Assembly (NCBI GenBank): GCA_964036195.1
Contig: OZ038459.1
Coordinates: 5,639,206-5,703,205, forward strand
Source: Sphaerolaimus hirsutus
Lineage: Eukaryota > Nematoda > Chromadorea > Monhysterida > Sphaerolaimidae
Direction of reading: 5' to 3'
DNA: 64,000 bases
The notes beneath the pieces are model-generated. The model was not told the DNA's origin. It made no database searches and worked only from the letters and a program-made list of their open reading frames with translations. This document shows, in pieces, positions 4,201 to 62,399 of the stretch. The position numbers and the translations under genes were made by a program. Numbering within the stretch: the first letter of the stretch is position 1; each line of letters begins with the position of its first letter.

Positions 4201-7200
4201 GTCATGCTGGAGTCTTTCATAGCATTCGATCCGCGGAATAAACACAAAAAAATTTAGACGCCATGTAACCTAGGTAGTCACTCTCCCACTTGTGTAATTC
4301 CCCACATACAGGGATGGGCATTTTCAGTTACCGCTGGAAAAACGCGATAGCTTGAGCTACGGTTTTTACAGTTTTTAGTGTAATTTTGTGACTTGACCCC
4401 CGTTATCTCAGGACTGGGGGACTATTCGAGAAAAACAAAGAATTTGGTTGTAGCCCCGACCCCAAAGGCCCAAACCCCAACATACTCAAAGGGCATCCAA
4501 ATCGGCCAATGTACGACAGAATGGGACAACACCAAAGACCGGTGACCCCCCCCCCCCCCCCCTCAAATGCCACCCTCGATTTATCCTATGGGTGACGCCT
4601 AGTCACAAAATTACACTAAAAACGGTGTGTTCCACTACTCACCCAAAATGTGGCCGTTTGGGTTGCAAACTTCAGAATAGGTGTCCTATGGAGTCTACTC
4701 TATTGTGTTAAAATTTCACTGTGATAGCTCAACCGTAGCTCAAGCTATCGCGTTTTTCCAGCGGTAACTGAAGATGCCCACCCCTGTATTTATCTCCCAC
4801 ACGAGAGCTGCCCGATTCAACACACCTTTTCACAAGCGCGCCGCCTTTCCATACCCCCAGCCGCGTTCCAACAGGTGCTCAGAAAGTGCACGTAGGGCTG
4901 CACGGCGGCGTCGGGCACCAAATTGACCCGATGCTCGTCCATCTCGTACAGCAGGCAGCCCATGGCGGCCACCTCGCTTTTTTGCCATTTTGAGGGATTG
5001 TCGAAAACCGAGTCGATTTTGGCGGCCAGCCCCAGTCTGGAGGAGTGGGAGAGGCAACCCCCTTGGAAGTAGTGCAGGTGCGAGTAGAATGTTTGGTCGG
5101 GCACTAGGGCGTAGACTCTGCGCGGCAGCTCGCTCAACGCGTATTGGAGACTGCTCGCCTGTGATTAACGCCGTGTGTCGACAATTTGTCATTGAGGTTG
5201 TCACAATTTTTGCACAAAAAATTGCATATGTTTTCAAAATACCTGTGATAATGTAAGATTTTCACATTTCTTTTAGTAGAATTCTTATTGCATTCTATAT
5301 TTTCAATGATTTTGTTACCAGTGGGATTCTCACTGGACCAGAGTTGTTAAAAGTACCAAACTTTTTTCAAAGTATACGTAAACGTAAAGTATTTATTTTT
5401 TACTCACCTCTTGAGTACAGAAAACGTAAAGAAATTTTTTTTTACTTTTACTCATGAGTAAACGTGAGTAAACGTACTTTTCCCCGCAGAAAACGTAAAC
5501 GTGAGTACTTTTGCAAAATGTCGCCAAAATTTTCGAGAAATGTCTCTCAAAATTAGCTATTTTCAAGACTTTTTGCCTATTTTACACAATTTGTGACTAT
5601 ATTTTTGGCGCTATACCCAGTTTCTACTAGTTTCATGTATTTTTAGCTAATTTTCTCCGTTTTTTCCCTTCTATGCCTTTAAAACCTATATAAAAGGCTA
5701 TCTAAAATACGTTTTCTGTACTCGAGTACTTTCAAAAAGTATGCGTAAAAGCGAGTACCAGAACTTTTTTTGAAGGAAACGTAAATGTATTTACTCTGTA
5801 CTCGAGTATACGTATTTATCGAGTAAAAGTAAATACGTTTTAACAACTATGCACTGGACCTTCTGTCTGGTAATGCAGTATTTACTAGGTGAGTTTAGTG
5901 TGATGAATCATGCCCAAGTTAGCAAGCGTGCATTGACATTGACAAACCTGAGAATCACCGACAACATTGCTGGTTCTGAAAACACAAGCCAGGCTGGCTG
6001 CAATCAAACTGTGGCGCCTTCTTTTTGGCCTTACTGTCAGTTGAAGTTGGGATGCATGTGTAAATTGAAATGCCCTCCTGGTGAATGTGGCACATGCCCT
6101 GGCGTCCATGGATCTGATAATTAAAATTACTGTGAAATTATCATGTTCAACTTAAAGGTAGAGTAGAGAAAATGGTTATTATTGGTGGATAATGTTTTAT
6201 TGGGAATTTTGAAACATTGGTGTGTCCCAACATGCTATTTTAAAAGATTTTCTAAAAAATAAGGTGTTGTAAAGTTTGTTTTCTAAACTCTCAGTGGCAA
6301 CACAGTAATTTATAACCTGTGTAATTTTTCTACTTAAAACTCAAACACTCCAAAACAAAAGCCAAAATCACCCACAAACCTGACATCAAAGCTATCAAAC
6401 TGCCTGAGCACGTCAGCTGGCACAGCCTCTATAACCTCAGGCCACAGGCCACCCTCAGCTTGGATGTCAGCGCCCAGCCACTGCACACTGGCCAGTTGGA
6501 TTTTGGTGCGCAGACACCAGGCGGTGGTTGAGATCAGGTTTACTTGCCCTGGATCGGATTGGCTCATTTTGAGTGGAATTTGAAGTGTGTGAAGTATTAG
6601 CATTGGAAAATGCATGCTTTTGAAATGATTATTTTATATCATGTCTCATCAAATCTTACAAAAACTAAATATAGGTCTTTAAATTTACGTGAAAAAGCCA
6701 GAAAAACTATAAACAAATATAAATGCATATTTATTTCTATTTACTGTTATTGTTTTAATCTCAGGAAATATCTCCAAAATTAATCAAATTAGGAAAATAT
6801 AAAAATGTAAAAAATATGTTTTTATATTTACTAATATGTATTCAATATAAACCTAGAGATTTCTTCAATTCTAGCTGCAATGATGACTAGTGGTGTTCTT
6901 TGCAAATCCATAGCAGAAACTGATTTAACAAATAATTATCCACACTCAACCAGAGTAAACCCACAATCAGTTATAAATGCCATCAGCTGGGGAATCTCTA
7001 GCAGTGATATTTTTTCCAACATATCACAATCAAGGCCTGACAATAGCTTTGCAGCCCGTATTGGACCATTTTGTTTGAGAAATAGCCCATAGTTATACTG
7101 ATGTTTTGTCAATTCTCTGTTCAGTCTGACATTGGCTTGCGGCCAACTGAACTCCTGAATTGTATCTTCTGGTATTGTTGAGTTGATTTTTGCTAAATCT

Positions 7201-10200
7201 GAACAAGGAATCATGTGGGCCATCTTTTTGGGAATGGTTATGTTTCCATCAAATGCAGCCTGGAAAAATGGTTTAGAGTTTTTGGTTACAGTTACAGTTC
7301 AGTTATATTTGCGTTACTGTTGGTTGTGGTGCATATCACAATCTGTCACTTGCTCAGGCCTCTCTTACCCATTTTTCATAACAATGTACTCATAAGTTTT
7401 TAAAATTCAACCATTCAGCAATTTTTGATGGGGGTATAAATGAAACGATATTTTTGTAAGCTCATACAGGGTGAATACATTTAGGAGAATCGTCCAAGAC
7501 AACATACACTATAAATATTCACTTAGCACACACTGTCACCCACCAGTAGACAAGAAAAAGTCAACTCAACTCAATGCAAAAGTCAACTCACTTGCAGGAA
7601 CATTTCCGTAGATCTAGCTGCTGTGAGCGCCTGCATAGTTTGCACTGGTGTCAAACCTAATTTTGTGCCTGCAGCCCTGGCAAATGCCAAAATGGATGCT
7701 GGTTGCAATAGGGCACCTGGCACCAAGTGCTCTCTAAGTAGAGATGATGCCAGGCCAGGTAAAAGTGATGTTGGCATTTTGCCAAGTTCCACATGTGTCC
7801 ATTTGACATTGCTGCCATCCACTTTTTGAGTCTGCCAAGCCTGGGCCAGATGCATGGCCAGCACGCGAGCCTGTGAATGTAGTGGCAAAAATGGATTTTA
7901 ACTTCTAATGCATGTGTATGTGTGCCAAAAGAACCTGAAAGTGAACTTAAAACTGAACTTAAAATCAATGCCAAACAGTGTAGTGTGGATTTCAACATTT
8001 TATCAAGAAAAGGTATAATATTGAAGGATAAATATCCAACCATCTACCTAATGAAGGCCACCCACCTGAGTTTGTGAAAAGTCTGCACAACCAAAGTTAG
8101 CCCTTATCTCCTGATTCTGCTCATCTGCTTGGGTACCATCAGTTTTCTTGTCAGTTTCAACTGCATTCACCAATGCAGTTGGTTTTATTTCAGCCAATTG
8201 AATGGGGGGAATAAATCGCATGAGGCATCCAATTTGGGAGATGTCTTTGCCAGACCATTCCATTATTGGCTTTGTTGGATTGTGCCATGTGAATACCTGG
8301 TGATTTTGTGTTGAATTTGGAAAGGAATGAGGTTGTTTTTTTGTCATTTTTCCACTTAGGTCTTTATCAACTGGATACCATTTCTGTATCCACCACTTGG
8401 GTATCTACCACTAGGGTATTCACCACTTGGGTAATCACCACTTGGGTATTCACCACTTGGGTATTCACCATTTGGCTTATTACCACTTAGGTATCCTAAA
8501 TAGATTGGCAGGTTTTGTGGGATATCTAACAAATCATGCCAATTTTTCAGAACACTTTCTATGCTTTGGTTGTTTTCCCACTGAGTTTACATATTTACTC
8601 TGTGTTTCACTGTTTTTAATCTTTATGTACTGTATTTAATAACAATCCTTGTCATGGAAACTGTGGCCTTCCTCTAACAAAACCAGAATTCTTCATAAAG
8701 TAGGTTATTTTTTATTTACATTTCTAACTTTCCACACAATTATTTCAAATCTCAGAGTTGTGAACCAGAAAGTCCCATATGATACAGTCCCATATCCTCA
8801 CCTGATATGCAGCTTGGAAACTTTGAGTGCAGTCATGTTTGCAAAACTCCATCTTAAACTTGTCACTGACACCAGGCTTCAACATCGATTCTTGTGGAAT
8901 GGCCTCCCTTAAAATCTCGGCTGGCATATAATGCATCAGGGCTCCACTTGAAGCCTCAATGGTGCCACTTTCAAGTATTTTCTTATTTTGCAACACACTG
9001 CGCCATAGGGATTCGGCTTGAGCCCTACTTAGGGCTAGCATTGATGCAGTGTGAATTTGTTCATCCTGCGAATTATTTTTGTGTTCAATTTGAAACGGGG
9101 AATGGCGTGTGGTTGATTTTGGTAGATGCGATAATATCCGAAAAAACTATGGCGGAGTTTTTCAATGTGCTAATGTGATACTTATAACAAAAACAAAATT
9201 TGATCCCGACCTGGTGCCACTCCCACGTCCTGTAAAATACCCTGTAAAGTGTAAAAGACCCTGTAAAGTGTCAAATGTCATGTAAAAGACCCTGTCAAGT
9301 GTCATATGTATCCTAATCTTATTTTATCATATCCAAATATTATGTTTTTTGTATCCAAATCTTACTTTTTGACAAAAACAAAAACATAAGATTTGAATAC
9401 GATCAAATTGGATTAGGATACACATGACACTTTACAGGGTCTCAAGGAAAATCCTAATTCTTCCACAATTCCCCAACAAAGGCAGTAGGTAACTTCAAAT
9501 TCCAATCTAAAATTCACTATTTGAATAAATCCCACTCACAGTGTGCAACATTTCAGCGGGTAAATTCGCCAGCACACTGGTCGGAGCTCCAGCCAGCAAT
9601 TTTCCCATCATTCCATCAGCCCCATCCAAGCCGACTGCCCTGTATGCGCCGATAAAAAGTGCCCTCTGCGTGCATTTGCCCAATTTTGTCAATTTTTCAT
9701 CGCTGCTTTGGCCCTGATCTGATGCGAAATGGTCGGAAACGACTGGATCAGTTGACAAAAGTGCCCTGAGGGCAGTCCCAGACCCTGTAAAATGCCGTGT
9801 AAAATGTCAAATGTCACGCAAAGTGTCAAAAATCATGTGAAATGACCGGTAAATTGGCAAACGTGTTTGCTATTTTACCGGACATTTTACATGACTTTTG
9901 ACACTTTGCATGATATTTGACATTTGACAGGGCATTTTACAGGGTCTGGGACTGGCACCTGATCGCCAAGGGGGCCAAAGTTTGGGGCAGATCGTAGAAA
10001 TTGGAACAGGGCATGGCATCGAGCCAATTGCTCACTAGCGCCAAAGAATCTCTGCGCGCGTTTATGTCAACTGTGAATGTCTACTTGAAAAGTTTCATTT
10101 ATGATGCAGCGCTGATACATAAATACCGACACCAACAAACTGGCAACAAGATAAAAATGTGATCTAGTGTGCAGGACTAATATTCTACCGTATTTGCTTC

Positions 10201-12120
10201 AATAACTCACATGGGGATACTTATTCACGGGGAGTAATTAAGATTTAGTCATAAATTATCAACCGTGTTTGTATCAACTGCATTCCACGAAATACGATTT
10301 ATTAACTCAATAACATGCCATCCCATATTTGTTCAAATTGAACACAACAAATTGATTATAAGCTTTAAGTGGATTTATTCAAAGGGGGAATTAGTTTTTC
10401 CTCAAATGTTTTACAGGGGGGAATTTTTCAAGAGGGGGGATTCTTCACGGGGAATTTTTCAAGCAAATACTGTAGTTTTGCCATTTGCTGTTCGTCCTAG
10501 ACACCAAGGCTGATCAAAATCGAGGCGTCACACGTCACGAAACTTTCAAATTTCGTGACAAAAACAAATTTCGTGATCACAGAAAAGCACGCAAATGCCA
10601 GCCAGAATCTCACCTCCCCCACCCAGTGTGCGAGCCCCAGTGAAGCCTGGCGCTAGCTAGAATAACTCTCTTCGAACTACTCTCCAATGGATCGGGACTG
10701 GCGGCGAAAATCAAATTCCTATTGACCAGTTCCAAGATTCGATCGAATCTGCGCCTGCCCAGCTGTCTGAGGACATTTGAGCACGCGACTGGATCATTTG
10801 CGTGCGTCATCAGAAGCCAGCGGCCATTCCCAGACCCTGCAAAGTGCCCTGTAAATGTCAAGTGTCATGCGAAGTGTCAAAAGTCAGGTGAAATGGGTTA
10901 TTTTGTAAGAATATAATTAAATATAATGCCAGAAATTTTCTCAAAAGGTAGAATATACCTAATTAAATCTCTGTGAGAAGACATAAAATTTATAAATAAA
11001 TATAAATGAGATATTTGTAAATCTTATTATTTTTTTGAAAACATCAGAAACGTCTCAAAAACCAATTCCATCTCACTGAAAACTCCTGGAAAAAAATAAA
11101 TATAAAAAATCTCATATTTTCTGATTTTTAAAAAACAATAAACATTTCCCCTCCGCAATGCACGACATTTGACACTTTGCACGACACTTGACACTTGACA
11201 GGGGCACTTGACAGAATCTGAGACTGGCACCAGGCCAACTGGGCATCGCTCAGAGTAGCCACGGCGGCGTGTCTCCAACTCCTGACAAGAGGGGCGGACA
11301 TGGCGCCCAGGCCCGACGGCGGCACCGACTCGTAGTTGCCCGACTGCACGGCCGTGCGCACGCTGGACGGCACCGTGGACAGCCACTGTTCCAGCGAGCT
11401 ACGTAAGGTGGCCTGCGGGTTTGGGGGTGTTATTTGGAGGGGGCGATTTGAGTGCCCTGTTTTCTGAGTACCTGCGCTGGCTCACTACGTTGGCTAATTT
11501 ATTTCTGGAAAGTATTTAGAAAATTGCCAGTGTTTTTTTTGCACCATAATTTTGGGACACTATTTAGCTGTAATTTGTTGTCTAAAATGAGTTATCTTCA
11601 GAAAATAAAATTAACATATTCATTGTAAAAGGAAGTCCGGTTCTATTTTTTCATCAAATGTTTTTTATCTGTCGTTGTATTGGGGGCTGCTGTTTTTCTC
11701 ACTTGAAATTTGTAAAATTTGCAGTAAAATCGTTTTAAATTTATACTTTAATTAAATACCTACCAAAATAGAGCTTACTACCTCGTCTATTCTCGTCTCG
11801 TCTATTACAATGCACAAATTAATTCTTTTCCGCAAAAAACACCAACCTCACAACAGGCCCTGATATGCCTGGCAGGGCACACCCCGCATCTATTAGCCAA
11901 CCCCTGTCCATTCGTGAATGCTGGCACTCTGCCAGGAGGCTCTCCTTCTTGGTTTTGTTGCGTTTTGCTGCCAATTTCCACAATGACCCCGCTTTCCGTG
12001 TCCGTGTACTCAGTTGGCTTTTCAGCCAATGTGCTGAGTTTATCGAATTCAGGCTGAGCTGGGTGCTTTGTGGTTGATGGCGGGGGTTTTCTGCGGGGGT
12101 TGTGAATCGAGTTTTGGGCA
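1053..12120 (-). CDS. Stereocilin/otoancorin/mesothelin-like GPI-anchored protein gene (17 exons)
   Basis: Multi-exon minus-strand gene. Exons in transcript order: 12120-11847, 11412-11231, 10817-10614, 10051-9959, 9765-9540, 9065-8802, 8296-8066, 7870-7592, 7259-6965, 6548-6380, 6113-5948, 5158-4826, 3896-3541, 3414-3182, 2640-2393, 1795-1635, 1206-1053. Reading phases agree at every junction and give about 1,290 codons ending in TGA. Seen: repeats of a helical pattern such as [46 protein letters not shown] and [19 protein letters not shown], then a hydrophobic C-terminus ([13 protein letters not shown]) with small residues before it, typical of a GPI signal. Known of the family: stereocilin, otoancorin and mesothelin are extracellular superhelical proteins built of such repeats; otoancorin and mesothelin are GPI-anchored. 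Inferred: a cell-surface or apical-matrix adhesion protein. The 5' end is uncertain, and one junction (10818) lacks AG. Confidence 0.68.
1614..1630. repeat. CA microsatellite beside a splice donor
   Basis: (CA)n run directly next to the donor of exon 1635-1795, on the intron side. Confidence 0.85.
1635..1795 (-). CDS. Mesothelin-like gene exon
   Basis: Preceded by a long C tract and CTCAG acceptor. Encodes [19 protein letters not shown] and [14 protein letters not shown], and ends in phase 2 at AAAG|GTGCGT next to a CA microsatellite. GC-rich. Confidence 0.75.
1884..2373. repeat. TIR element with CACACTAGTTTAC ends, in an intron
   Basis: The left end reads GCTGCACACACTAGTTTAC and the right end is its approximate reverse complement (GTAAACTAGTGTGCATAGC). 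It occupies most of the intron between exons 2393-2640 and 1635-1795. Confidence 0.6.
2393..2640 (-). CDS. Mesothelin-like gene exon (superfamily repeat)
   Basis: Acceptor CCTACAG|AC completes an Asp codon. Contains [16 protein letters not shown] and [16 protein letters not shown]. Donor AAAG|GTGGGA, phase 0. Confidence 0.78.
2919..3090. repeat. Near-perfect 82-bp palindrome in an intron
   Basis: Left arm 2919-3000 and right arm 3009-3090 are reverse complements with very few mismatches around an 8-base loop. Each arm is built of short GC-rich units such as CCGAATGTATACCCG. Confidence 0.9.
3182..3414 (-). CDS. Mesothelin-like gene exon (superfamily repeat)
   Basis: Acceptor AATTCCAG|A, ends in phase 1 at GCAG|GTTTTT. 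Contains [16 protein letters not shown] and [14 protein letters not shown], the clearest superfamily signature in the gene. Confidence 0.78.
3541..3896 (-). CDS. Mesothelin-like gene exon
   Basis: 356 nt, acceptor TTTTTCAG|GAC, ends in phase 2 at AACAG|GTTTGT. Encodes [39 protein letters not shown] and [17 protein letters not shown]. Confidence 0.75.
4311..4786. repeat. hAT-like TIR element, CAGGGATGGGCA ends
   Basis: Begins CAGGGATGGGCATTTTCAG and ends with the reverse complement (CTGAAGATGCCCACCCCTG); the inverted match continues through ACGCGATAGCTTGAGC. The CAGGGRTGGGCA end is typical of hAT elements. No clear 8-bp target duplication. A second copy lies at 59341-59890. Confidence 0.75.
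4826..5158 (-). CDS. Mesothelin-like gene exon
   Basis: 333 nt, phase 0 at both ends (AATCACAG|GCG and AAAAG|GTGTGT), strikingly GC-rich. Encodes [19 protein letters not shown] and [19 protein letters not shown], a good match to the superfamily repeat rhythm. Confidence 0.75.
5339..5851. mobile_element. hAT-like non-autonomous element with 8-bp target duplication
   Basis: Ends CAGAGTTGTTAAAAG and CGTTTTAACAACTATG, flanked by CACTGGAC at 5331-5338 and 5852-5859. The interior is made of TACTCGAGTA, ACGTAAACGTA and similar words. It sits in an intron of the mesothelin-like gene. Confidence 0.88.
5948..6113 (-). CDS. Mesothelin-like gene exon with basic RPKRRR stretch
   Basis: Acceptor TTATCAG|A restores phase. 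The exon is open for 55 codons, includes RPKRRRHS, and ends in phase 0 at CTCAG|GTTTGT. A shorter 28-nt exon from an internal TTTTCAG (5976-5978) would also keep the frame. Confidence 0.55.
6380..6548 (-). CDS. Mesothelin-like gene exon
   Basis: Acceptor GATCCAG|GG, encodes [31 protein letters not shown] and [12 protein letters not shown]. Ends in phase 2 at GTCAG|GTTTGT. Confidence 0.66.
6965..7259 (-). CDS. Mesothelin-like gene exon
   Basis: Acceptor TTTTCCAG|GCT, phase 0. Encodes [18 protein letters not shown] and more. Donor GATT|GTGGGT leaves phase 1, which matches the next exon. A second GT at 6950 would leave phase 0 and break the frame, so it was not used. Confidence 0.68.
7592..7870 (-). 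CDS. Mesothelin-like gene exon
   Basis: 279 nt, phase 0 at both ends (TTCACAG|GCT and CAA|GTGAGT). Encodes [29 protein letters not shown] and [12 protein letters not shown], consistent with helical repeats. Confidence 0.75.
8066..8296 (-). CDS. Mesothelin-like gene exon
   Basis: 231 nt, phase 0 at both ends (TCACCAG|GTA and CTCAG|GTGGGT). Encodes [18 protein letters not shown], then an acidic, Gln-rich stretch, possibly a loop between helical repeats. Confidence 0.72.
8389..8491. repeat. 18-bp tandem repeat
   Basis: About six copies of a CACCACTTGGGTATT-type unit, with a few substitutions, in an intron. Confidence 0.85.
8802..9065 (-). CDS. Mesothelin-like gene exon
   Basis: 264 nt, phase 0 at both ends (TTCGCAG|GAT and CAG|GTGAGG). 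Encodes an Ala- and Leu-rich helical segment including [18 protein letters not shown] and [13 protein letters not shown]. Confidence 0.75.
9214..9450 (+). repeat. Introner-like element, GTGCC end, inside an intron
   Basis: Starts CTG|GTGCCACTCCCACG and runs through CCTGTAAAATACCC to an inverted counterpart TTTACAGGGTCTC. The 3' end is degraded. It lies antisense within the intron between exons 8802-9065 and 9540-9765. Confidence 0.65.
9540..9765 (-). CDS. Mesothelin-like gene exon
   Basis: Acceptor CTGCCCTCAG|G is the 3' end of the introner. Encodes [19 protein letters not shown] through [11 protein letters not shown], donor ACT|GTGAGT, phase 0. Confidence 0.72.
9766..9958 (-). mobile_element. 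Introner: element that is exactly an intron
   Basis: On the minus strand it begins GTGCCAGTCCCAGACCCTG right after ATCAG and ends GGACTGCCCTCAG right before the next exon. The two ends are inverted repeats (CAGTCCCAGACCCTGTAAA) except at the outermost bases, which form donor and acceptor. TCAG is repeated on both sides. Removing it restores an uninterrupted phase 2 codon. Confidence 0.85.
9959..10051 (-). CDS. Mesothelin-like gene exon
   Basis: 93 nt, acceptor GCGCGCAG|A, in frame from the previous phase 2. Encodes [15 protein letters not shown]. Donor ATCAG|GTGCC is the 5' end of the introner at 9766-9958. Confidence 0.62.
10614..10817 (-). CDS. Mesothelin-like gene exon
   Basis: Encodes [20 protein letters not shown] and continues open to donor GGGGGAG|GTGAGA (phase 2). 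The upstream boundary fits the frame only if the intron ends in CTG instead of an AG dinucleotide. Confidence 0.6.
10818..11230 (-). mobile_element. Introner-like intron with non-AG end and internal insertion
   Basis: Starts GCCTG|GTGCCAGTCTCAG and ends GGGTCTGGGAATGGCCGCTG|G. Frame is kept only if splicing occurs after CTG. CTG is present on both sides. The central 200 bp or so are AT-rich and unlike the ends, probably a later insertion. Confidence 0.65.
11231..11412 (-). CDS. Mesothelin-like gene exon
   Basis: Acceptor CCCGCAG|GCC, phase 0. Encodes [18 protein letters not shown] through SDAQLA. Ends in phase 2 at GCCTG|GTGCC, where the donor is the first bases of an introner-like element. 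It is GC-rich compared with its surroundings, as expected for a coding exon here. Confidence 0.7.
11847..12120 (-). CDS. Mesothelin-like gene, first exon of the main model
   Basis: Open frame rich in Pro, Thr and Glu, then a Cys-containing end ([15 protein letters not shown]) and donor GAG|GTTGGT in phase 0. The acceptor CCCCAG|T at 12121 is tentative. It sits at the edge of an introner-like element lying in the opposite orientation. Confidence 0.5.
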
Positions 12121-12130
12121 CTGGGGTCAG

Positions 12131-12281
12131 GTGCCAATCCCAGATCCTGTAAAGTGCCCTGTAAAATGTCAAATGTCATGCAAAATGACAACCGAGTTGG
12201 CATTTTCCATTATTTTTGACACTTTCCATGACATTTGACATTTTGAGGGCACTTGACAGTGTCTCGGACGGACTGACCCAG
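12131..12281 (+). repeat. Introner-like element antisense to the local gene
   Basis: Plus-strand ends GTCAG|GTGCCAATCCCAGATCC and GACTGACCCAG|GTCGG, with inverted CCTGTAAA motifs inside. CAG flanks both sides. Confidence 0.75.
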
Positions 12282-12596
12282 GTCGGTTTAAAAAAAAGTA
12301 GAAAAACTATTTCTGAATGAGAAGTAATTTAAACATGGTGAAGGAAATTTAATTATGGAAACGAGTGGTGAAATGGAAAATAATGGAAAATGGAGCTCAA
12401 ACATTTGTCGTTCACTTATTTGGGATGCAATGGACAATGCAGTTTATACAAGCACTAGTTTTGAACAATTTTTTTGAAAACTCAACACTGAACGCATTTT
12501 GCTTTACCAGATTTGTGTGGCTGTCAATTATTCACAGTTAATGAGGATTAGAAAGAACTCATTTCGGTAAACTCCGTTCAATGCGTTCAAATCTGA

Positions 12597-12602
12597 TTTA
12601 TT
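12597..12602 (-). terminator. Candidate polyadenylation signal of the signal-peptide exon pair
   Basis: AATAAA on the minus strand about 60 bases after the TAG stop of the 12663-12844 exon. It supports the separate small-gene model. Confidence 0.4.
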
Positions 12603-12662
12603 AGGTCCCAAAATTTTGGTTGAAAACTATTGTGTGTAGGCAAATTCTCACATAAATATTTC

Positions 12663-12844
12663 CTACAAATAAAATTGTGAAACAGACTGTTTTGGCCAAT
12701 GTTTCTTGGCCATATACTCTTTCTTCTCACCACCACTTTCGATCACGCCAGCAACTTGATCAGTGCTCAACAATTTTATATATCTATCGACAAATTTCTG
12801 AATATCTTCTGGCGACGGCATATTTGTCGGGTCCAGAAGGCCAC
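12663..12844 (-). CDS. Second exon after the signal-peptide exon
   Basis: Acceptor TTTTAG|GT completes the Gly codon of the previous exon. Encodes GLLDPTNMPSPEDIQKFV and more, up to a TAG stop. An internal GGTG|GTGAGA could be an alternative donor. Confidence 0.5.
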
Positions 12845-13169
12845 CTAAAATGAGGGCATTTTGTTGGAATTTCCTTGAAATTCAGGCTATTAATTTGTTA
12901 CCCATACCTGGCTTCAACGCATTTATTAACGGGTCGTCATCGCTGCGAACAGTTTCAATCGTGTAGGCTGCGTTTGCCAACTTTCCGAGCAATTCTCCGG
13001 TTCTAGTCAGATTGGCTCTGTTCAATGTTGGTGCCAATTTTGACTTTAATCGCTCAAAAAGACGTCTGGCATCGTCTTTTAACGAATCAGTTTCCTCTAA
13101 AAATTCTACGTAGCCATCAGTGATGAAGCATAGGCTTAGATATAGAAATATTAGACAAAATAGCTTCAT
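12663..13169 (-). CDS. Signal-peptide exon pair: 5' end of the mesothelin-like gene or a small secreted protein
   Basis: Exon 1 (13169-12908) starts with ATG and a strong signal peptide (MKLFCLIFLYLSLCF), followed by a charged helical region. Its donor CCAG|GTATGG is in phase 1 and joins exon 2 (12844-12663, acceptor TTTTAG|GT) in frame. Read to its own stop, the product is about 147 residues, and AATAAA lies about 60 bases downstream. That supports a separate small secreted protein. Alternatively, exon 2 ends early at an internal donor and splices into 12120, supplying the signal peptide that the mesothelin-like gene otherwise lacks. No phase-matched strong donor was found for that joining, so both models remain open. 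I do not recognise the short protein. Confidence 0.55.
12908..13169 (-). CDS. Signal-peptide exon
   Basis: 262 nt, starts at ATG and ends in phase 1 at CCAG|GTATGG. It encodes the signal peptide and a segment rich in Lys, Arg, Asp and Glu, including RLFERLKSKLAPTLNRANLT. Confidence 0.6.
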
Positions 13170-18293: not shown

Positions 18294-18391
18294 ACTGTTT
18301 ATATGCACGTTCAAACCTTGTGTTACCGCAATATACTGAAGCTTTCATGGAGAAATTGTCAGAAGATTGGCGAATGAAAGTTGTTCACCAT

Positions 18392-19140
18392 GTGCCGGTT
18401 CCGCAAGTGGACAAGTTAAGAGTTAAAAGTTAAGAGTTGAGTAAAAAGACAAATGGCAAGTTAAGAGTAAAGTTTAAGTTTAAGAGAAAAGTTAAAGTTT
18501 AAGAGAAAAGTTAAAATTTAAGAGAAAAGTTAAAAGTTGAGTTAAAGGTTAAGAGTTGAGTTAAAGGTTAAAAGTTGAGTTAAGAGTTAAAAGTTGAGTT
18601 AAGAGTTAAGAGACAAGTGGAAAATGAAGGTAAAAAAATATAAAAAAATAAAAATATGAAATTGGTATCGATACGGCTGTTCGCTGGCATGGTGCCAATG
18701 TTGTATGCACGTCATTTGAAAATAACGTATCCAAAAAAATTATCGCTAAAAAAAGAAAAAATCGCCGAACGTTGTTTCGAAATGGCCGTGCGGGGACAAA
18801 ATATGATTGAAGATCAGCGTATCGCGCTTCTGCAACGAATGACCCATTTGTCTTTTAAATCAACTTTTAACTCACACTTTAACCTTTAACTCAACTCTTA
18901 ACCTTTAACTCAACTTTTGACTCAACTTTTAACCTTTAACTCAACTCTTAACTTTTAACTCAACTTTTGACTCAACTTTTAACCTTTAACTCAACTCTTA
19001 ACTTTTAACTCAACTTTTGACTCAACTTTTAACCTTTAACTCAACTCTTAACTTTTAACTCAACTTTTGACTCAACTTTTAACCTTTAACTCAACTCTTA
19101 ACTTTTAACTCTTAACTTGTCTACTTGCGGAACTGGCCCC
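18392..19140 (+). mobile_element. Long inverted-repeat introner-like element with conserved insert
   Basis: Ends GTGCCGGTTCCGCAAGTGG and CTTGCGGAACTGGCCCC. The left half is an array of AGTTAAAAGTTGAGTTAAAG words and the right half is its reverse complement, so a transcript could fold into a hairpin. Between the arms is a unique stretch (about 18656-18850), also found at 26164-26363 and, inverted, at 58358-58561. Confidence 0.8.
18656..18853 (+). other. Conserved insert with an open frame, coding status doubtful
   Basis: Open for 66 codons (starts MKLVSIRLFAGMVPML, includes ARHLKITYPKKLSLKKEK). The copy at 26164 is open too, but the copy at 58358-58561 is frameshifted after the lysine-rich stretch. 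It could be a captured gene fragment. No family was recognised. Confidence 0.3.
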
Positions 19141-19876
19141 ATGTTTACTTGGGTGAGCGCATATGCAATTCATTTTTCTACGCTTTGTAGATTACTGGAG
19201 ATCACTATAACACTGAATATTGATGCTTAGCATTGAAAAATGGAGGATTTTGACAAAATTTTATGAATAAAGTAGTAGTCTCCAAAAACCGGGCCGGCGG
19301 GTAAAAAAGAGGACGAAAAATGTAGAAGGGTGCCCTTCTCTATATTATAAGAAATACGGTATTACTAGCGGTATTTGCTAAGTGTGCGCTGCGCCATTTT
19401 ATAATCAATAATTACCTAAATGTTAATTTTCAATGATTACTTAGTGTTCATCCATTGGCATTTGTTATAGCGGGGGCGGGTTGAGTGAGCGTGATGTAAA
19501 ATGTGCATTTAATTTGTCACAATATTCATAAAAACAATACATTATGGACAAATGTTTTACTACTGATGAGGTGTGGGTGGACTTGATGAATGTCAAGAAA
19601 TTAAACAGGAAAATAGATTTGCTTATGCACGTGTTTTCTCTATTTTCCTGCTATGGCTTTAAAAAAGACCTTGATCTGAAATACGTTTTCTGTACTTGAG
19701 TACTTCCAAAAAGTCAACGTAAAAGCGAGTACAACAATTTTTTCGGGGGAATGTACAGCAAATCTGTACTCGAAGTCGAGTATACCTATTTATCGAGAAA
19801 AAGTAGATACGTTTTAACAACTATGCTCACCCCCTGAGTACAGTGTTGTAAATACCAGTATTTTTACTGAGTGTAA

Positions 19877-23166: not shown

Positions 23167-23359
23167 GGGGGCAGTCCCAAGCCCTGTAAAGTGTAAAGTA
23201 AAGTGTCAAATGTAAAGTCAAATGCAAAGTCAAGTGTCAATCAAAAGAAAAAAGAAAAAATTTTATTACTGAACTTTGCATGACAATTGACAGTTTACTT
23301 TGCACTTGACTTTACATTTGACACTTTACTTTACACTTTACAGGGCTTGGGATTGGCAC
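23167..23359 (-). repeat. Introner-like element inside a MITE remnant
   Basis: Minus strand: GAGCAG|GTGCCAATCCCAAGCC to GGCTTGGGACTGCCCC|CTG, with inverted CCTGTAAAGTGTAAAGTAA ends. It splits a CCGTATTTGTTCGAATAATTT sequence. Confidence 0.75.
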
Positions 23360-24163: not shown

Positions 24164-24328
24164 GTACTAGTCCCAGGCCCTGTAAAATGCGCTGTCAAAT
24201 GTCAAATCTCTTGCAAAGCGTCAAAAGTCATGTAAAATGACCCGTAACTCGGTTGCCATTTTGCAGGGCATTTTATATGATTTTTGACACTTTGCATGAC
24301 GTTTTACAGGGTCGGGGACTGCCCCCTG
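24164..24328 (+). repeat. Introner-like element, intergenic
   Basis: CAG|GTACTAGTCCCAGGCCCTG to GGGTCGGGGACTGCCCCCTG, TGTCAAATC-type interior, same architecture as 9766-9958. Confidence 0.75.
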
Positions 24329-25822: not shown

Positions 25823-25886
25823 ATATCATTCCAGATGGCGGGTATTTCAAAGTGGAGTTATTTTTTCTTCAGCTCGCTCAGACCAG

Positions 25887-26601
25887 GTGCCGGTTCCGCA
25901 AGTGGACAAGTTAAGAGTTAAAAGTTAAGAGTTGAGTAAAAAGACAAATGGCGAGTTAAGAGTAAAGTTGAAGTTTAAGAGAAAAGTTAAAGTTTAAGAG
26001 AAAAGTTAAAATTTAAGAGAAAAGTTAAAAGTTGAGTTAAAGGTTAAGAGTTGAGTTAAAGGTTAAAAGTTGAGTTAAGAGTTAAAAGTTGAGTTAAGAG
26101 TTGAGTTAAGAGTTAAGAGACAAGTGGAAAATGATGGTAAAAAAAATATAAAAAAATAAAAATATGAAATTGGTATCGATACGGCTGTTCGCTGGCATGG
26201 TGCCAATGTTGTATGCACGTCATTTGAAAATAACGTATCCAAAAAAATTATCGCTAAAAAAAGAAAAAATCGCCGAACGTTGTTTCGAAATGGCCGTGCG
26301 GGGACAAAATATGATTGAAGATCAGCGTATCGCGCTTCTGCAACGAATGACCCATTTGTCTAATTAAATCAACTTTTAACTCATTTTTTAACCTTTAACT
26401 CAACTCTTAACTTTTAACTCAACTTTTGACTCAACTTTTAACCTTTAACTCAACTCTTAACTTTTAACTCAACTTTTGACTCAACTTTTAACCTTTAACT
26501 CAACTCTTAACTTTTAACTCAACTTTTGACTCAACTTTTAACCTTTAACTCAACTCTTAACTTTTAACTCTTAACTTGTCTACTTGCGGAACTGGCCCCT
26601 G
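25887..26601 (+). mobile_element. Long inverted-repeat introner-like element, second copy
   Basis: CCAG|GTGCCGGTTCCGCAAG to TTGCGGAACTGGCCCCTG. Nearly identical to 18392-19140 through arms and central insert (26164-26363). Confidence 0.8.
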
Positions 26602-26604
26602 GGT

Positions 26605-31705: not shown

Positions 31706-32030
31706 CCTGGGGGCAGGGCAGTCCCAAGCCCTGTCAAGTGAAAAGTAAAGTGTCAAATGTAAAGTCAAATGCAAAGTAAAGTGTCAATCAAAACAAAAAA
31801 GAAAATATTTTATTACTGAACTTTGCATGACAATTGACAGTTTACTTTGCATTTGACTTTACATTTGACACTTTACTTTGCATTTGACTTTACATTTGAC
31901 ACTTTACTTTGCATTTGACTTTACATTTGACACTTTACTTTGCATTTGACTTTACATTTGACACTTTACTTTGCATTTGACTTTACATTTGACACTTTAC
32001 TTCACACTTTACAGGCCTTGGGATTGCCAC
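31706..32030 (-). repeat. Introner-like element with 31-bp tandem array
   Basis: Minus strand CTG|GTGGCAATCCCAAGGCC to GGCTTGGGACTGCCC. The interior carries about five exact copies of a 31-bp unit built from ACTTTACTTTGCATTTGAC. Confidence 0.75.
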
Positions 32031-41157: not shown

Positions 41158-41205
41158 ATGGCAAATTACGGAGCAGTCACACATGCAATTTTCGTTGCCA
41201 TTTTC
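41158..41205 (+). CDS. Neuropeptide gene exon 1 (start of signal peptide)
   Basis: ATG to donor TTC|GTGAGT, 16 codons, phase 0. The hydrophobic run continues across the junction into exon 2, which supports both exons. Confidence 0.75.
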
Positions 41206-43312
41206 GTGAGTTTGAAATTTTGTCAACGCCAAGTATTTTTTGCAGGCAGGACTGTTTAAATGTATTTACCGCGTACTCGTTCGTGTACGCGTATTTTTCG
41301 AGTAAATGTACATGCATTTTACCAACTGTGCAGACTACTTACTTAACTAATGAAATTTACAAAATGATTGTATTTAGGTAATCATTAAACAGCCTTGAAC
41401 GCATTTGAGTTCAGCTGAATGAGTTGTTTTTACTATTTGTCAACTGTAGTTGATGAACATCTAATTCGAGTAAACTCAATTTCAAAGTTGATTTATGAGT
41501 GTACTAAATTTTTTGTTTACTGGTAAATATTTAGTACACTAGTGAGTGAGTGCAGCGACAATGCATGTATTTACAGCACCATAAAACACAGGAGCTAATT
41601 TCAAGTGCGGCTGTCTTTCTTAAAACTGTAAATAGCACCCAGTTGTGTACGTAAATAACTCGCAGACAATTGTGTGCTTGCAATCAGCGCACGGCCGGCC
41701 GGCGGTGCTCTACGCGCTCGTTCCCGTCGACTCGCTGGCCGACGCGGCCTACAGCGACGCCTTGCCCCAGCTCGGCATCGAGCCCGCCGACGAGAACGAC
41801 CGGGCCGTATTGAGTTTGGCTGAGAATCTGTCCATGCCGAGTCTAGTGCAGGTGCCACTCCCGGACACTGTAAAAGACCCTGTCAAATGTTAAATGTCAA
41901 AATTTTACCGGGCGTTTTACATGACTTTTGACACTTTGCATGGCATTTGACATTTCAGAGGGTCTTTTACAGGGTCTCGGACTGCCCTCAGGACAAGGTG
42001 AAGAGAACGTTGGACTTGGTCAATGCGGGCGCTTCGCACCACGGATGGGGCAGGATGGGCAAAAGAGACGCGCTGGTGGAGGGCCCCGCTTTCAGTGACG
42101 CCGACTACTTCCATCGCGTTCCACCCGTCTGTTTGGGGGGGGGGGCTATCAGTGCGCTGGATGCGTGTCAAGCATAGTTTTTAAAACGTATTTACGTTTA
42201 CTTCATAAATACGTATACCGCATTTCCTCGAATTACCCCCCCCCTCGAAATACCCCCCTTCGAACCCCCCCCCCCCCCGAGCTCTACAAAATTGGAGCAC
42301 ATTTCAAACTACTTTCCAAGTTCTGTTCATAGCACCCTGGTGCAATGCAAATCACGGGGTGCTATGCTATGTTTGTTCTATACCGATAGATACTTAAGGT
42401 AATGATACTGACTGATTAACTTTTATATAATTCATATATCAATTATCAAATTGGGTTCACTTGGGTTCACCATGAATATCTATTTGCTTTATTTACCTAT
42501 TTGTATCTACCTAACTATGTGTTGCAAAACTATGCTTGGTGATGTTGAAATGGCAATATTCCCACACCCCACAGATCTCTGAACACAGGCGCCACTTCAA
42601 GTTGCTCTGGTGAATTACACCAGAAGCATTTGATGTAGCCGCAGCATGCAATTTAATAGGCATATGTGTGCAAAAGAACGCCTCTCGCCATGCAAAAAAA
42701 CTCTTATGCAACATATGGTCCTGTGATCTTCCCTTTTAGTATTATTTAAGTATTATTTACGCTAAGAGATGATCACCAAATTTTTTCGGGTGAGAAGTAA
42801 AGCACCCAGGTGCTTTACATGGAACATTTTGCACAGCATAGCACCCGAGGAGCTTTGAACGGGGGTGCTTTGATCAGAGAAAAATGTCTAGAAAACAGAA
42901 TGGAAAATGGAAAAATAGATTCAGCGGCCGGAAAACGGAAAAAAATTTGCCTGTGGAAAACGGAAATTTGACACCCTATTCCCAGGCATCCTCCTTGCAC
43001 TGGAAACGCTCGTTGGACATGGTGAACGCGGGCGCCACCCAGCCCATGTGGGGCAAGCGGTCACTGGACATGATTAATGCGGGCGCCACCCAGCAGATGT
43101 GGGGCAAACGGTCACTGGACATGATCAATGCTGGTGCCAGCCAGCAGATGTGGGGCAAACGGTCACTGGACATGATCAATGCTGGTGCCAGCCAGCAGAT
43201 GTGGGGCAAACGGTCACTGGACATGGTGAACGCAGGGGCCACCCAACCCATGTGGGGAAAACGGTCACTGGACATGATCAATGCCGGCGCCGGCGCGCAC
43301 ACGTGGGGCTGA
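41158..43312 (+). CDS. Multicopy W-amide neuropeptide precursor
   Basis: Four exons, all introns in phase 0: 41158-41205, 41666-41851, 41992-42126, 42986-43312, about 231 residues. Seen: signal peptide (ANYGAVTHAIFVAIFTIVCL), acidic spacer, then seven peptide units cut by Lys-Arg. Six in the last exon follow SLDM(V/I)NAGA(T/S/G)xxxWG and one in exon 3 reads TLDLVNAGASHHGWG. The Gly before Lys-Arg or the stop predicts C-terminal amidation, giving 14-residue W-amides. Known: such layout is typical of neuroendocrine prohormones. I cannot place the peptide in a named family; it resembles neither W(X6)W-amides nor orcokinins closely. Intron 2 is an introner. The donor of exon 3 (CCC|GTCTGT) is weak. 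Confidence 0.85.
41666..41851 (+). CDS. Neuropeptide gene exon 2 (end of signal peptide and spacer)
   Basis: Acceptor CTCGCAG|ACA, 62 codons. Encodes TIVCLQSAHG, a likely signal-peptidase site, then an acidic spacer with LPQLGIEPADEND. Ends GTGCAG|GTGCC. Confidence 0.8.
41852..41991 (+). mobile_element. Introner: 140-bp intron of the neuropeptide gene
   Basis: GTGCAG|GTGCCACTCCCGGACACTG to AGGGTCTCGGACTGCCCTCAG|GAC. The ends are inverted repeats apart from the splice bases, and the interior has the TGTCAAATG words of the 9766 family. It splits two codons cleanly in phase 0. Confidence 0.88.
41992..42126 (+). CDS. Neuropeptide gene exon 3 (first peptide copy)
   Basis: Acceptor CCCTCAG|GAC. 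Encodes DKVKR, TLDLVNAGASHHGWGRMGKR and a spacer. The 3' boundary is inferred from phase; the G-rich tract just downstream is not conserved coding sequence. Confidence 0.75.
42986..43312 (+). CDS. Neuropeptide gene exon 4 (six peptide copies)
   Basis: Acceptor TTCCCAG|GCA, 108 codons and TGA. Six 17-codon units; two (SLDMINAGASQQMWGKR) are identical even at DNA level. The last unit ends in Gly before the stop, still suitable for amidation. Confidence 0.9.
   Translation, partial: ASSLHWKRSLDMVNAGATQPMWGKRSLDMINAGATQQMWGKRSLDMINAGASQQMWGKRSLDMINAGASQQMWGKRSLDMVNAGATQPMWGKRSLDMINAGAGAHTWG
43006..43309 (+). repeat. 51-bp coding tandem repeat
   Basis: Six head-to-tail copies of a 51-base unit encoding one peptide plus its Lys-Arg. 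Near identity between units points to recent unequal exchange. Confidence 0.9.
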
Positions 43313-45501: not shown

Positions 45502-45930
45502 CTGGGTGCATTCCCAGATCCTGTAAACGACCCTGTAAAATGTCATGTCTCATGTAAAAGACTTATGTAAAATATCATGTGTGATGTAAAAACCCTGTAC
45601 AGTATCAAATGTCATGTAAAAACCCTGTAAAGTTTCATGTGTATCCAGATATTTTTTATCATAAGATTTGGATACGATAAAACGAGATTTGGATACACAT
45701 GACACTTTACAATGTATGTTACATGACATTTGACACTTTACTGGGGGGGTTTTCATGACACTTTACAGGATGTTTTACACTTTACAGGGTCTTTTACACT
45801 TTACAGGGCCTTTTTACACTTTACAGGGTCTTTTACACTTTACAGGGTATTTTACACTTTACAAGGCCTTTTGCACTTTACAGGGCCTTTTACACTTTAC
45901 AGAGTCTTTTACAGGGTCTGGGAGTGGCAC
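45502..45930 (-). repeat. Introner-like element with intact GT and AG ends
   Basis: Minus strand AAG|GTGCCACTCCCAGACCCTG to GATCTGGGAATGCACCCAG|GT. The interior has repeated TTTACACTTTACAGGG words and an inner inverted pair around AAGATTTGGATAC. No exon is recognised on either side. Confidence 0.7.
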
Positions 45931-56774: not shown

Positions 56775-59700
56775 CTGGGGTCAAATTCGATTCGAATGTA
56801 AGGTGACCGACACGCGAGAAGCATAGAGTTTCGCGCAGGAGCCAATTCTGCCAGGTGCCAATGCCAATGCCCATGTTGAGAAGTAAACAATTTTTTTTAT
56901 TTACTGAGTAAGAAGTAAATCTACAAGTGAGAAGTGAAATGGCAATTAAAATCTCTTAAAAATTTAACAAATTTAAAGTTTAAAATTTAATACATTTTTA
57001 GCGTTTTCTTGTCACTTGTCTTTTACTATTTACTTGCTACTTCACTTTTCACTTCTAAATTGACTTTTCATTTAAATTTTTACTTAAAATTTCACTTCTC
57101 ACTAGTAAATTTACTTCTCACTTCTGAAAATATAAAGTTTTTCTACTTCTCAACTTGACTTGACCGGCTTTGAACGGAATTGACACCAGGACGCCCACAC
57201 AATTGCATGCCTGACTCGCGCGATCTCACGTCACGTGCGCCTTACGTTCGAATTGAATTTGGCACCTGTAGGCATCACCGTCCCAGCAGCAAGTGTCCGC
57301 ATGATTCCTAAGTTCGGTTGGGTTGCAGTCGGCGTTTCTTTCGCACCTGAAATATGTGAAATCATGCATTTGTGGGTTTTTTTATTGCAGTGATTTGAGA
57401 CCCATTTCTACTCTACATTACCATAACCTATAAGTCAAGCTCCCAGGGCTAAAACATTGAAAATTGTGAAATGATGCATTCGTGGATTTATAATTGCAAT
57501 GATTTGAAATGTGCACTCCATTCCATTCTGATACTACATTACTGTAACCCTGAAATCGAACCTCTGGGGCCAAAACTTTCGAGTTATGAAATGATGCATT
57601 TGTGGGTTTCTAATTGCAGTGATTTGAGATATGCACTCCATTTCTACCCTACATTACCATAACCCTTAATTCGAAACTGCCAAACAATTGGAAATTGTGG
57701 AATGATGCATTTGTGGATTTATGATTGCAATGATTTGAAAGATGCACTCCATTTTGACACTAGGTACATTACCATACACCTGAAAATGAACCCCTGAGGC
57801 CAAAAACTTTCACTTTGTGAAATGATGCATTTGTGAGTATTTTCGTGCACTGATTTCTAATATGCACTCCATTCTGGCACTACATTACTGTATCCATGAA
57901 ATTGAACCCATGGGGCCAAAACTTTCAAATTGTGAAATGATGCATTTGTGGGTTTCTAATCGCATTGATTTGAAATATGCATTCCATTTTCACCCTACAT
58001 TACCGTAGGCCTTAAATTGAATGGGGGAAAAATTAGAAATGATGCATTTGTGGGTTTCTGATTGCACTGATTTGAAATATGCACTCTGTTGTGACAAATT
58101 ACACACTGTACCCTCAAATTGAACACCAGGGGCCAGTTCCGCAAGTAGACAAGTTAAGAGTTAAAAGTTAAGAGTTGAGTTAAAGGTTAAAAGTTTAGTC
58201 AAAAGTTGAGTTAAAAGTTAAGAGTTGAGTTAAAGGTTAAAAGTTGAGTTAAAAGTTAAGAGTGGAGTTAAAGGTTAAAAGTTTAGTCAAAAGTTGAGTT
58301 AAAAGTTGAGTTAAAGGTTAAAAGGTGAGTTAAAAGTTGATTTAAAAGACAAATGGGTCATTCGTTGCAGAAGCGCGATACGCTGATCTTCAATCGTATT
58401 TTGTCCCCGCACGGCCATTCTGAAACAACGTTCCGCGATTTTTTTTTTAGCGATAATTTTTTTGGATACGTTATTTTCAAATGTCGTGCATACAACATTG
58501 GCAGCATGCCAGCAAACAGCCGTATCAATACCAATTTCACATTTTTATTTTTTACCATCATTTTCCACTTGTCTCTTAACTCTCAACTCTTTACTCAACT
58601 CTTAACTCAACTCTTAACTCAACTTTTAACCTTTAACTCAACTCTTAACATTTAACTCAACTTTTAACTCAACTCTTAAATTTTCACTTTTCTCTTAAAC
58701 TTTAACTTTACTCTTAACTCGCCATTTGTCATTTTACTCAACTCTTAACTTTTAACTCTTAACTTGTCCACTTGCGGAACCGGCACCAGGTGCCAGTTCC
58801 GCAAGTGGAAAAGTTAAGAGTTAAAAGTTAAGAGTTGAGTAAAATGACAAATGGCAAGTTAAAAGTAAAGTTAAATGATAAATGATGAGTTAAGAGGCAA
58901 GAGTAAAATTAAATGACAATGATCTCTTACAATAGATAAGAGTAGAGTTAAGAGTCAAGCAAGTGTATCCAAATCTTATTTTTCATATCCAGATCTAATA
59001 TTTTTGTATCCAAATCTTATGAGAGAACATAAGATTTGGATACAAAAAACATAAGATCTGGATACGAAAAAAATTTTGGATACACTTTCTTGACTCTTAA
59101 CTTTACTTTTACCTCTTGACTAATCATTTGTCATTAAACTTTACTGTTTACTTTCCATTTGTCATTTTGCTCAACTCTTAACTTTTAACTCTTAACTTTT
59201 CCACTTGCGGAACTGGCCCCTGTGTTTAAACATTGAAATAATGAAATAATGTTTGTTTTCTTGTTTTTTTTTCATAGAGTTAGAACACTGCGAAACCCGA
59301 CCAAAGGTCAGAGAGAATCCTGCTAGTAAATACATGTACAGGGGTGGGCATCTTCAGTTACCGCTGGGAAAATGCGATAGATTGAGCTACGGTTGAGCTA
59401 TCAGAATGAAATTTTAACACAATGGAGTAGACTCCATAGGACACCTATTCTGAAGTTTGCAACCCAAACGGCCACATTTTGGGTGAGTTGTGGAACACAC
59501 GGTTTTTAGTGTAATTTTGTGACTTGGCGTCACCCATAGGATAAATCGAGGGTGGCATTTGAGGGGGGGCATCGGTCGTTGGTGTCGTCCCATTCTGTCG
59601 TACATCGGCCGATTTTGATGCCCTTTGAGTATGTTGTGGTCGCGCCTACTACCAAATTCTTTTTTTACTCGAATAGTCCCCCAGTCCCGAGATAAGGGGG

Positions 59701-62199: not shown

Positions 62200-62399
62200 N
62201 NNNNNNNNNNNNNNNNNNNNNNNNNNNNNNNNNNNNNNNNNNNNNNNNNNNNNNNNNNNNNNNNNNNNNNNNNNNNNNNNNNNNNNNNNNNNNNNNNNNN
62301 NNNNNNNNNNNNNNNNNNNNNNNNNNNNNNNNNNNNNNNNNNNNNNNNNNNNNNNNNNNNNNNNNNNNNNNNNNNNNNNNNNNNNNNNNNNNNNNNNNN
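62200..62399. other. Assembly gap (200 N)
   Basis: Run of exactly 200 N. AGTTGAAAA is found on both sides, so the gap may hide or duplicate repeat sequence. Open frames across it mean nothing. Confidence 0.98.

Follow-up and report, generated by a model that had tools for sequence, protein, structure and literature searches.

A short mobile element appears to have landed in the coding part of two genes, a neuropeptide gene and its neighbor, and each insertion seems to have produced a new intron. Both genes lie in the 64-kb window, that is, the whole stretch of DNA that was analyzed. We think it likely that the element belongs to a family of non-autonomous, MITE-like DNA transposons that makes introns on landing in coding sequence. 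This reading follows from the presence of many copies with common ends, the exact filling of an intron, the coding frame on both sides of it, and the same arrangement in a second gene. Two clear examples within 64 kb make this a probable introner family, a known kind of element. What makes it noteworthy is that the host is probably an animal and that a target site and one element end would jointly form the splice sites.

An element that makes up an entire intron of a neuropeptide gene

The neuropeptide gene was modeled with four exons, and the first of the elements, E1, accounts for its second intron:

41158..41205, plus strand: exon 1, beginning of the signal-peptide-like sequence; open reading frame and GTGAGT donor
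41666..41851, plus strand: exon 2, extends the signal-peptide-like stretch in frame and ends ...GTGCAG
41852..41991, plus strand: E1, 140 bp, GT...AG, the whole of intron 2; GTGCCACTCCC...GGACTGCCCTCAG
41992..42117, plus strand: exon 3, starts DKVKRTLDLVNAGASHHGWGRMGKR...; frame set by likeness to the exon 4 repeats, 3' end weakly supported
42986..43312, plus strand: exon 4, six SLDM(I/V)NAGA... repeats, then a stop

The junctions read exon ...CTAGTGCAG | GTGCCA...CCTCAG | GACAAGGTG, with CAG|GTGCCACTCCC at the start of the element and GGACTGCCCTCAG|GAC at its finish. When joined, the four exons form a complete open reading frame, which begins with the signal-peptide-like MANYGAVTHAIFVAIFTIVCLQSAHG..., passes through ...SLVQ|DKVKRTLDLVNAG... 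and six more peptide repeats, and reaches a stop codon directly after the sixth SLDM(I/V)NAGA repeat. The original prediction had taken 41852-41991 to be an entire intron of this gene, running from GT to AG, whose removal joins exons in frame; the coordinates were exact and the frame was as claimed. The peptide just downstream of intron 2, TLDLVNAGASHHGWGRMGKR, resembles the repeats of exon 4, and this likeness fixes the downstream frame. If E1 were retained, the upstream frame would run into a TAA inside the element, and thus removal of the intron is needed. The donor, GTGCCA, is weak. Intron 3 also has a weak donor (CGC|GTTCCA), which was chosen by hand.

The predicted precursor (41158-43312) contains seven related peptides of the form (S/T)LD(M/L)(I/V)NAGA...WG, five of which end in MWGKR. 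A precursor of this type points to an animal as the probable host. A protein search with the neuropeptide found no close relative, only two weak matches (E values 3.2e-3 and 5.7e-3) that had W-GKR repeats in common with it, and none of its peptide words was found in the literature searched.

Copies of the element elsewhere in the window

BLAST of 41852-41991 against the 64-kb window revealed relatives on both strands and in many places, the best matches being 9872-9954, 9766-9853, 12131-12269 and 24169-24247. We also scanned the window with the terminal motif CAGTCCCAGACCCTGTAAA, which was derived from the family itself. It had 19 matches with at most 4 mismatches and 29 with at most 5, part of the latter being internal sub-repeats and not element ends; ten first-order Markov sequences, each as long as the window, yielded totals of 1 and 8, respectively. 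The terminal-motif matches thus exceed chance. Eight whole paired elements (E1-E8) were delineated, which measure 129-418 bp between the outer edges of their motifs. In addition to E1, the family comprises:

9766..9958, minus strand: E2, a whole 193-bp intron of a minus-strand gene; flanks TCAGG/TCAGG
10818..11230, minus strand: E3, an older copy that encloses other sequence of about 250 bp; T-end at an exon edge
12131..12281, plus strand: E4, antisense to the minus-strand gene, within a provisional intron
9209..9458, plus strand: degenerate copy, antisense to the minus-strand gene and within its intron 9539-9066
23169..23358, minus strand: E5, away from the modeled genes
24165..24324, plus strand: E6, away from the modeled genes
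31711..32029, minus strand: E7, with internal 31-bp tandem repeats; away from the modeled genes
45506..45929, minus strand: E8, long, with internal 19-bp tandem repeats; away from the modeled genes

Five of the eight paired copies (E4-E8) are situated away from the edges of modeled introns, and, as had been proposed, copies of the element occur outside the two modeled genes as well. E1-E8 are short and multi-copy, have no coding capacity and carry terminal inverted repeats, which are the properties of MITEs. Both this anatomy and the copy number show that the sequence is a mobile element with inverted ends. It starts TGC-CAGTCCC... and finishes ...GGACTG-CCC, so that its termini, read inward, are TGC-CAGTCCC and GGG-CAGTCCC. 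In all eight paired copies an end starting with T is found at exactly one side, where the flanking base is G (the first three bases are TGC in six copies, TAC in one and TGG in one), and the other end of each copy begins, read inward, with G or A.

The termini of Transib and RAG-like transposons begin with a CAC-type heptamer. A transposon of this type, considered for a possible 5-bp GC-rich duplication, was rejected on account of the ends described above. Foldback-type elements have long inverted arms composed of short tandem sub-repeats, and E7 and E8 resemble them in their arms of short tandem units: the arm of E7 (31830-32002) consists of 31-bp units and that of E8 (45758-45913) of 19-bp units.

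It had also been claimed that the two ends of E1 are reverse complements except for the splice bases. This did not hold, as its two 65-nt arms agree at only 42 of 62 aligned positions. The RNA fold of E1 with 20-nt flanks had a predicted energy of -65.8 kcal/mol (z -4.47), and none of 200 shuffled sequences was equally stable. E1 self-complementarity alone is not rare in this palindrome-rich window, and the palindrome was dropped as stand-alone evidence because 19 of 3000 random 140-nt draws from the window equaled the 40-nt arm identity of E1. E2 is a near-perfect hairpin, with agreement at 77 of 87 arm positions and a fold of -138.3 kcal/mol (z -18.66). A role of the hairpin in hiding internal acceptors was considered and rejected, since it explains little: the sites at offset 121 in E1 and offset 174 in E2 are fully paired, and the terminal acceptors mostly are too (mean unpaired 0.26 and 0.09).

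Two terminal-motif patterns had no matches in the viral_contigs and genome_contigs sets, which hold viral and prokaryote sequence, and these zeros are barely informative. The 64-kb window gave no Rfam match and no tRNA. No report of the element was found in the literature searched, a body that leaves preprints and most subscription papers outside its coverage.

A second whole-intron copy in a minus-strand gene

E2 and E3 are located in a gene on the opposite strand:

6936..13169, minus strand: predicted secreted-protein gene, 10 exons modeled by eye; carries E2 and E3

This gene runs downward from 13169, has a signal peptide and probably extends below 6936; the stretch 12730-11413 of the model may hold more exons. 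Eight of its exons give a continuous 597-aa open reading frame that spans E2. Pfam scans of seven sequences encoded by the two genes, whole proteins or parts of them, assigned no family to it, and a protein search with the 597-aa protein found no homologue at E<=1.

The ends of E2 equal those of E1 (CAG|GTGCCA...CCTCAG|G). Thus, two copies of the element form whole introns, and both have in-frame junctions. The original prediction had proposed intron birth by transposition, that is, an introner. This second exact case (9958-9766), which had been missed earlier, supports the proposal, short of proving it. E1 and E2 are identical at 110 of 129 positions and, judging by this value, are not fresh insertions. 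The introns themselves are presumably young.

E3 differs from these two. Its T-end coincides with an exon edge (TG|GTGCCA), and its far end reads GCCGCTG|GCTTC, without AG; this 3' edge was placed by hand, at the flank site copy. The flanks of E3 are CCTGG and GCTGG. An origin of E3 as a duplicate of the E2 intron was also considered, as the flanking exons are similarly placed and both introns are in phase 2. The protein stretches could not be significantly aligned (E value 11), and this origin, though it may apply, was dropped.

As a control, we asked whether any window repeat touched the first six or the last six bases of the 12 modeled introns of the two genes (intron 3 of the neuropeptide gene was one base short in this input). 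A repeat was present at both edges of 3 of the 12 introns (E1, E2 and E3, the 3' edge of E3 having been set by hand) and at neither edge of the other 9, 5 of which hold repeats deeper inside. In these 12 introns from two genes, the sequence similarity of E1 and E2 extends to both splice edges and that of E3 to the donor edge. The three copies with the T-end at an exon edge are all in sense orientation; the other two copies within the gene, E4 and that at 9209-9458, are antisense and not at exon edges.

A probable CCWGG-like target site and the proposed origin of the splice sites

Short flanking sequences resembling CCWGG were found on both sides of the elements. In E1 they overlap the splice sites:

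41847..41852, plus strand: left site copy of E1, GCAGG at 41848-41852; its final G is base 1 of the intron
41988..41992, plus strand: right site copy of E1, TCAGG, source of the AG acceptor and of base 1 of the following exon

At 14 of the 16 flanks of E1-E8, at least four of the five positions match CCWGG at a fixed spacing of 3 nt, compared with a window background of 1.9%; the motif and the spacing were picked from the same 16 flanks, so that the tail probability of 8.8e-23 cannot be read as an unbiased test. The flanks that fall short are the right-hand ones of E4 and E7, where CCAGG occurs 3 and 5 nt further out. The two flanks of E2 match each other at 5/5 positions and those of E1 at 4/5. 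The mismatch in E1 (GCAGG/TCAGG) falls on the silent third base of a Val codon and would fit a mutation of the exon copy after the insertion. These observations strongly suggest that the element inserts at CCWGG-like sites. Agreement between the two flanking 5-mers was 4, 5, 4, 0, 3, 3, 0 and 4 positions for E1 to E8, with a sum of 23 against a shuffled mean of 22.1 (p 0.41), and with a nearly constant site and only eight copies, duplication is not separable from target preference by this measure. The middle base of the site, compared by eye, is equal within the element in 5 of 8 pairs and differs in E5, E6 and E7. CCWGG occurs 8 times in the 2,858 bp of modeled exons and 105 times in the remaining 61,142 bp, a slightly higher density in the exons. 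Transposition with duplication of the site is the process that we infer.

The original prediction had assigned GT and AG to the ends of the element itself. The positions were exact, but the first G and the TCAG come from the flanking target and the element gives the T. An arrangement with both splice sites wholly in the element was therefore rejected. In the mechanism that we propose, the element lies between two copies of the short CCWGG-like site. Insertion at a sense site nCAGG with the T-end upstream would produce ...nCAG|G+TGCC...CCC+nCAG|G, in which the donor would be composed of the last G of the first site copy and the T of the element, and the second site copy (TCAG|G) would supply the acceptor AG together with the next exon base. 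Excision of GTGCC...TCAG would leave a single nCAGG and an mRNA identical to that before the insertion. With CAG|G inside the site and a T at the start of the element, an nCAGG that receives the element in sense orientation would become CAG|GT...CAG|G, the arrangement of E1 and E2. A CCTGG site would give CTG|GT...CTG|G instead; E3, which is at CCTGG, ends in CTG without AG, in line with this prediction. Based on the reading frame in two genes, splicing probably occurs at exactly these ends.

We raise, as a tentative idea, that intron gain is ongoing in this animal genome and that the target preference of the element is the splice signal itself. A correctly oriented copy landing on CCAGG, read in the sense of the mRNA, would make GT...AG unaided, and one landing on CCTGG or in the opposite orientation would not. 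If this is true, the birth of an intron would be a by-product of target choice. Should RNA and related species confirm the present reading, this would be an animal introner with a simple rule, a CCAGG target plus a T-starting end; such a rule would predict which insertions become introns, E3 being an example that does not.

Alternative explanations

The insertions into coding sequence could be real and yet be spliced at other sites, partly inside the element, so that part of it is translated. In that case the ends given in the original prediction would be incorrect, and the intron would nonetheless come from the element. E1 contains an earlier acceptor in frame, TTTCAG at 41958 (offset 107), the use of which would add 11 codons, and in the predicted fold this site is more open than the terminal acceptor (mean unpaired 0.57 vs 0.26); moreover, with no AG at the far end of E3, another acceptor must serve there. 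In E2, however, five YAG sites were listed, the sole late non-terminal one (offset 174) breaks the frame, and those in frame (offsets 7 and 13) are too close to the donor for an intron. The exact-end solution, which is common to E1 and E2, argues against this alternative, and we regard it as unlikely.

Ancient introns might instead have been filled or replaced by the element at a later time. Many ordinary, element-free introns are present in the minus-strand gene, and E4 and the copy at 9209-9458 are inside introns, but such later insertions keep intron sequence on both sides, for example around 9209-9458, whereas E1 and E2 consist of the element from the T of the donor to the base before the acceptor site copy, with no remnant of an older intron. 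This makes conversion very improbable; as no non-element intron sequence is present, we infer that the introns arose by insertion. Finally, the exons may have been mis-modeled or the genes may be dead, in which case the match between element and exon edges would be an artefact of how the models were drawn. The exons were indeed drawn by eye, the minus-strand gene has neither a homologue nor a Pfam family, and the two weak matches to the neuropeptide came only through W-GKR repeats. Nevertheless, the frame of the neuropeptide is fixed downstream by six repeats and upstream by the signal-peptide-like stretch, and it is open up to the stop after the last repeat. An artefact of this kind is hardly credible.

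Relation to known introners

The origin of new introns is an old question, and introners are the best current answer to it. The introners of the algae Micromonas and Aureococcus, the subject of work by Huff and colleagues in 2016, are reportedly MITE-like, with terminal inverted repeats and one splice site derived from a target duplication. By this description, the present family is similar in being MITE-like with terminal inverted repeats and in having a splice site that probably derives from a target copy, and the algal introners differ in their hosts and in a reportedly longer duplication.

A survey of 3,325 genomes described 548 introner families in 175 of them, with only two animal groups as hosts (Gozashti et al. 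2022, PMC9860276). It also describes introner splice sites that are carried or co-opted in various ways. The introners with terminal inverted repeats and target site duplications shown there and the present family are alike in being multi-copy, similar up to the splice edges, frame-preserving and provided with inverted ends, and one splice site, co-opted there from the duplicated target, would have the same origin here. Among the layouts shown, the nearest are those of Fig. 2C (Chrysochromulina, 5' site carried and 3' site co-opted) and Fig. 2E of PMC9860276. Compared by layout, the family described here differs from these in its split donor, made of a target G and an element T, and in its 5-bp CCWGG-like site.

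The introners of Amoebophrya (Farhat et al. 2021, PMC7789003) also have inverted repeats at both intron ends and direct repeats of 3-5 nt over the exon/intron edges; they differ in their mostly non-canonical splice sites and their dinoflagellate host. The accessible portions of a tunicate paper (PMC13326754) and a human paper (PMC12124190) held nothing specific to the present case.

Other features of the window

Several further features were observed. A run of N at 62200-62399 is an assembly gap. At 3484-3540 (plus strand) a solitary element-like end, CCAGG-TAC-CAGTCTCGCACCCTGTAA, is located in an apparent intron of the minus-strand gene. The segment 22384-23035 contains nested and tandem relatives of the family, with the palindrome ends GGGCAGTCCC and GGCCAGTCCCGCAAGTGG, one within another. 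A separate palindromic family with CTTTTAACTCAA-type units is found at 18378-19144, 25882-26602 and 58116-58792, two copies of which are up to 96% alike.
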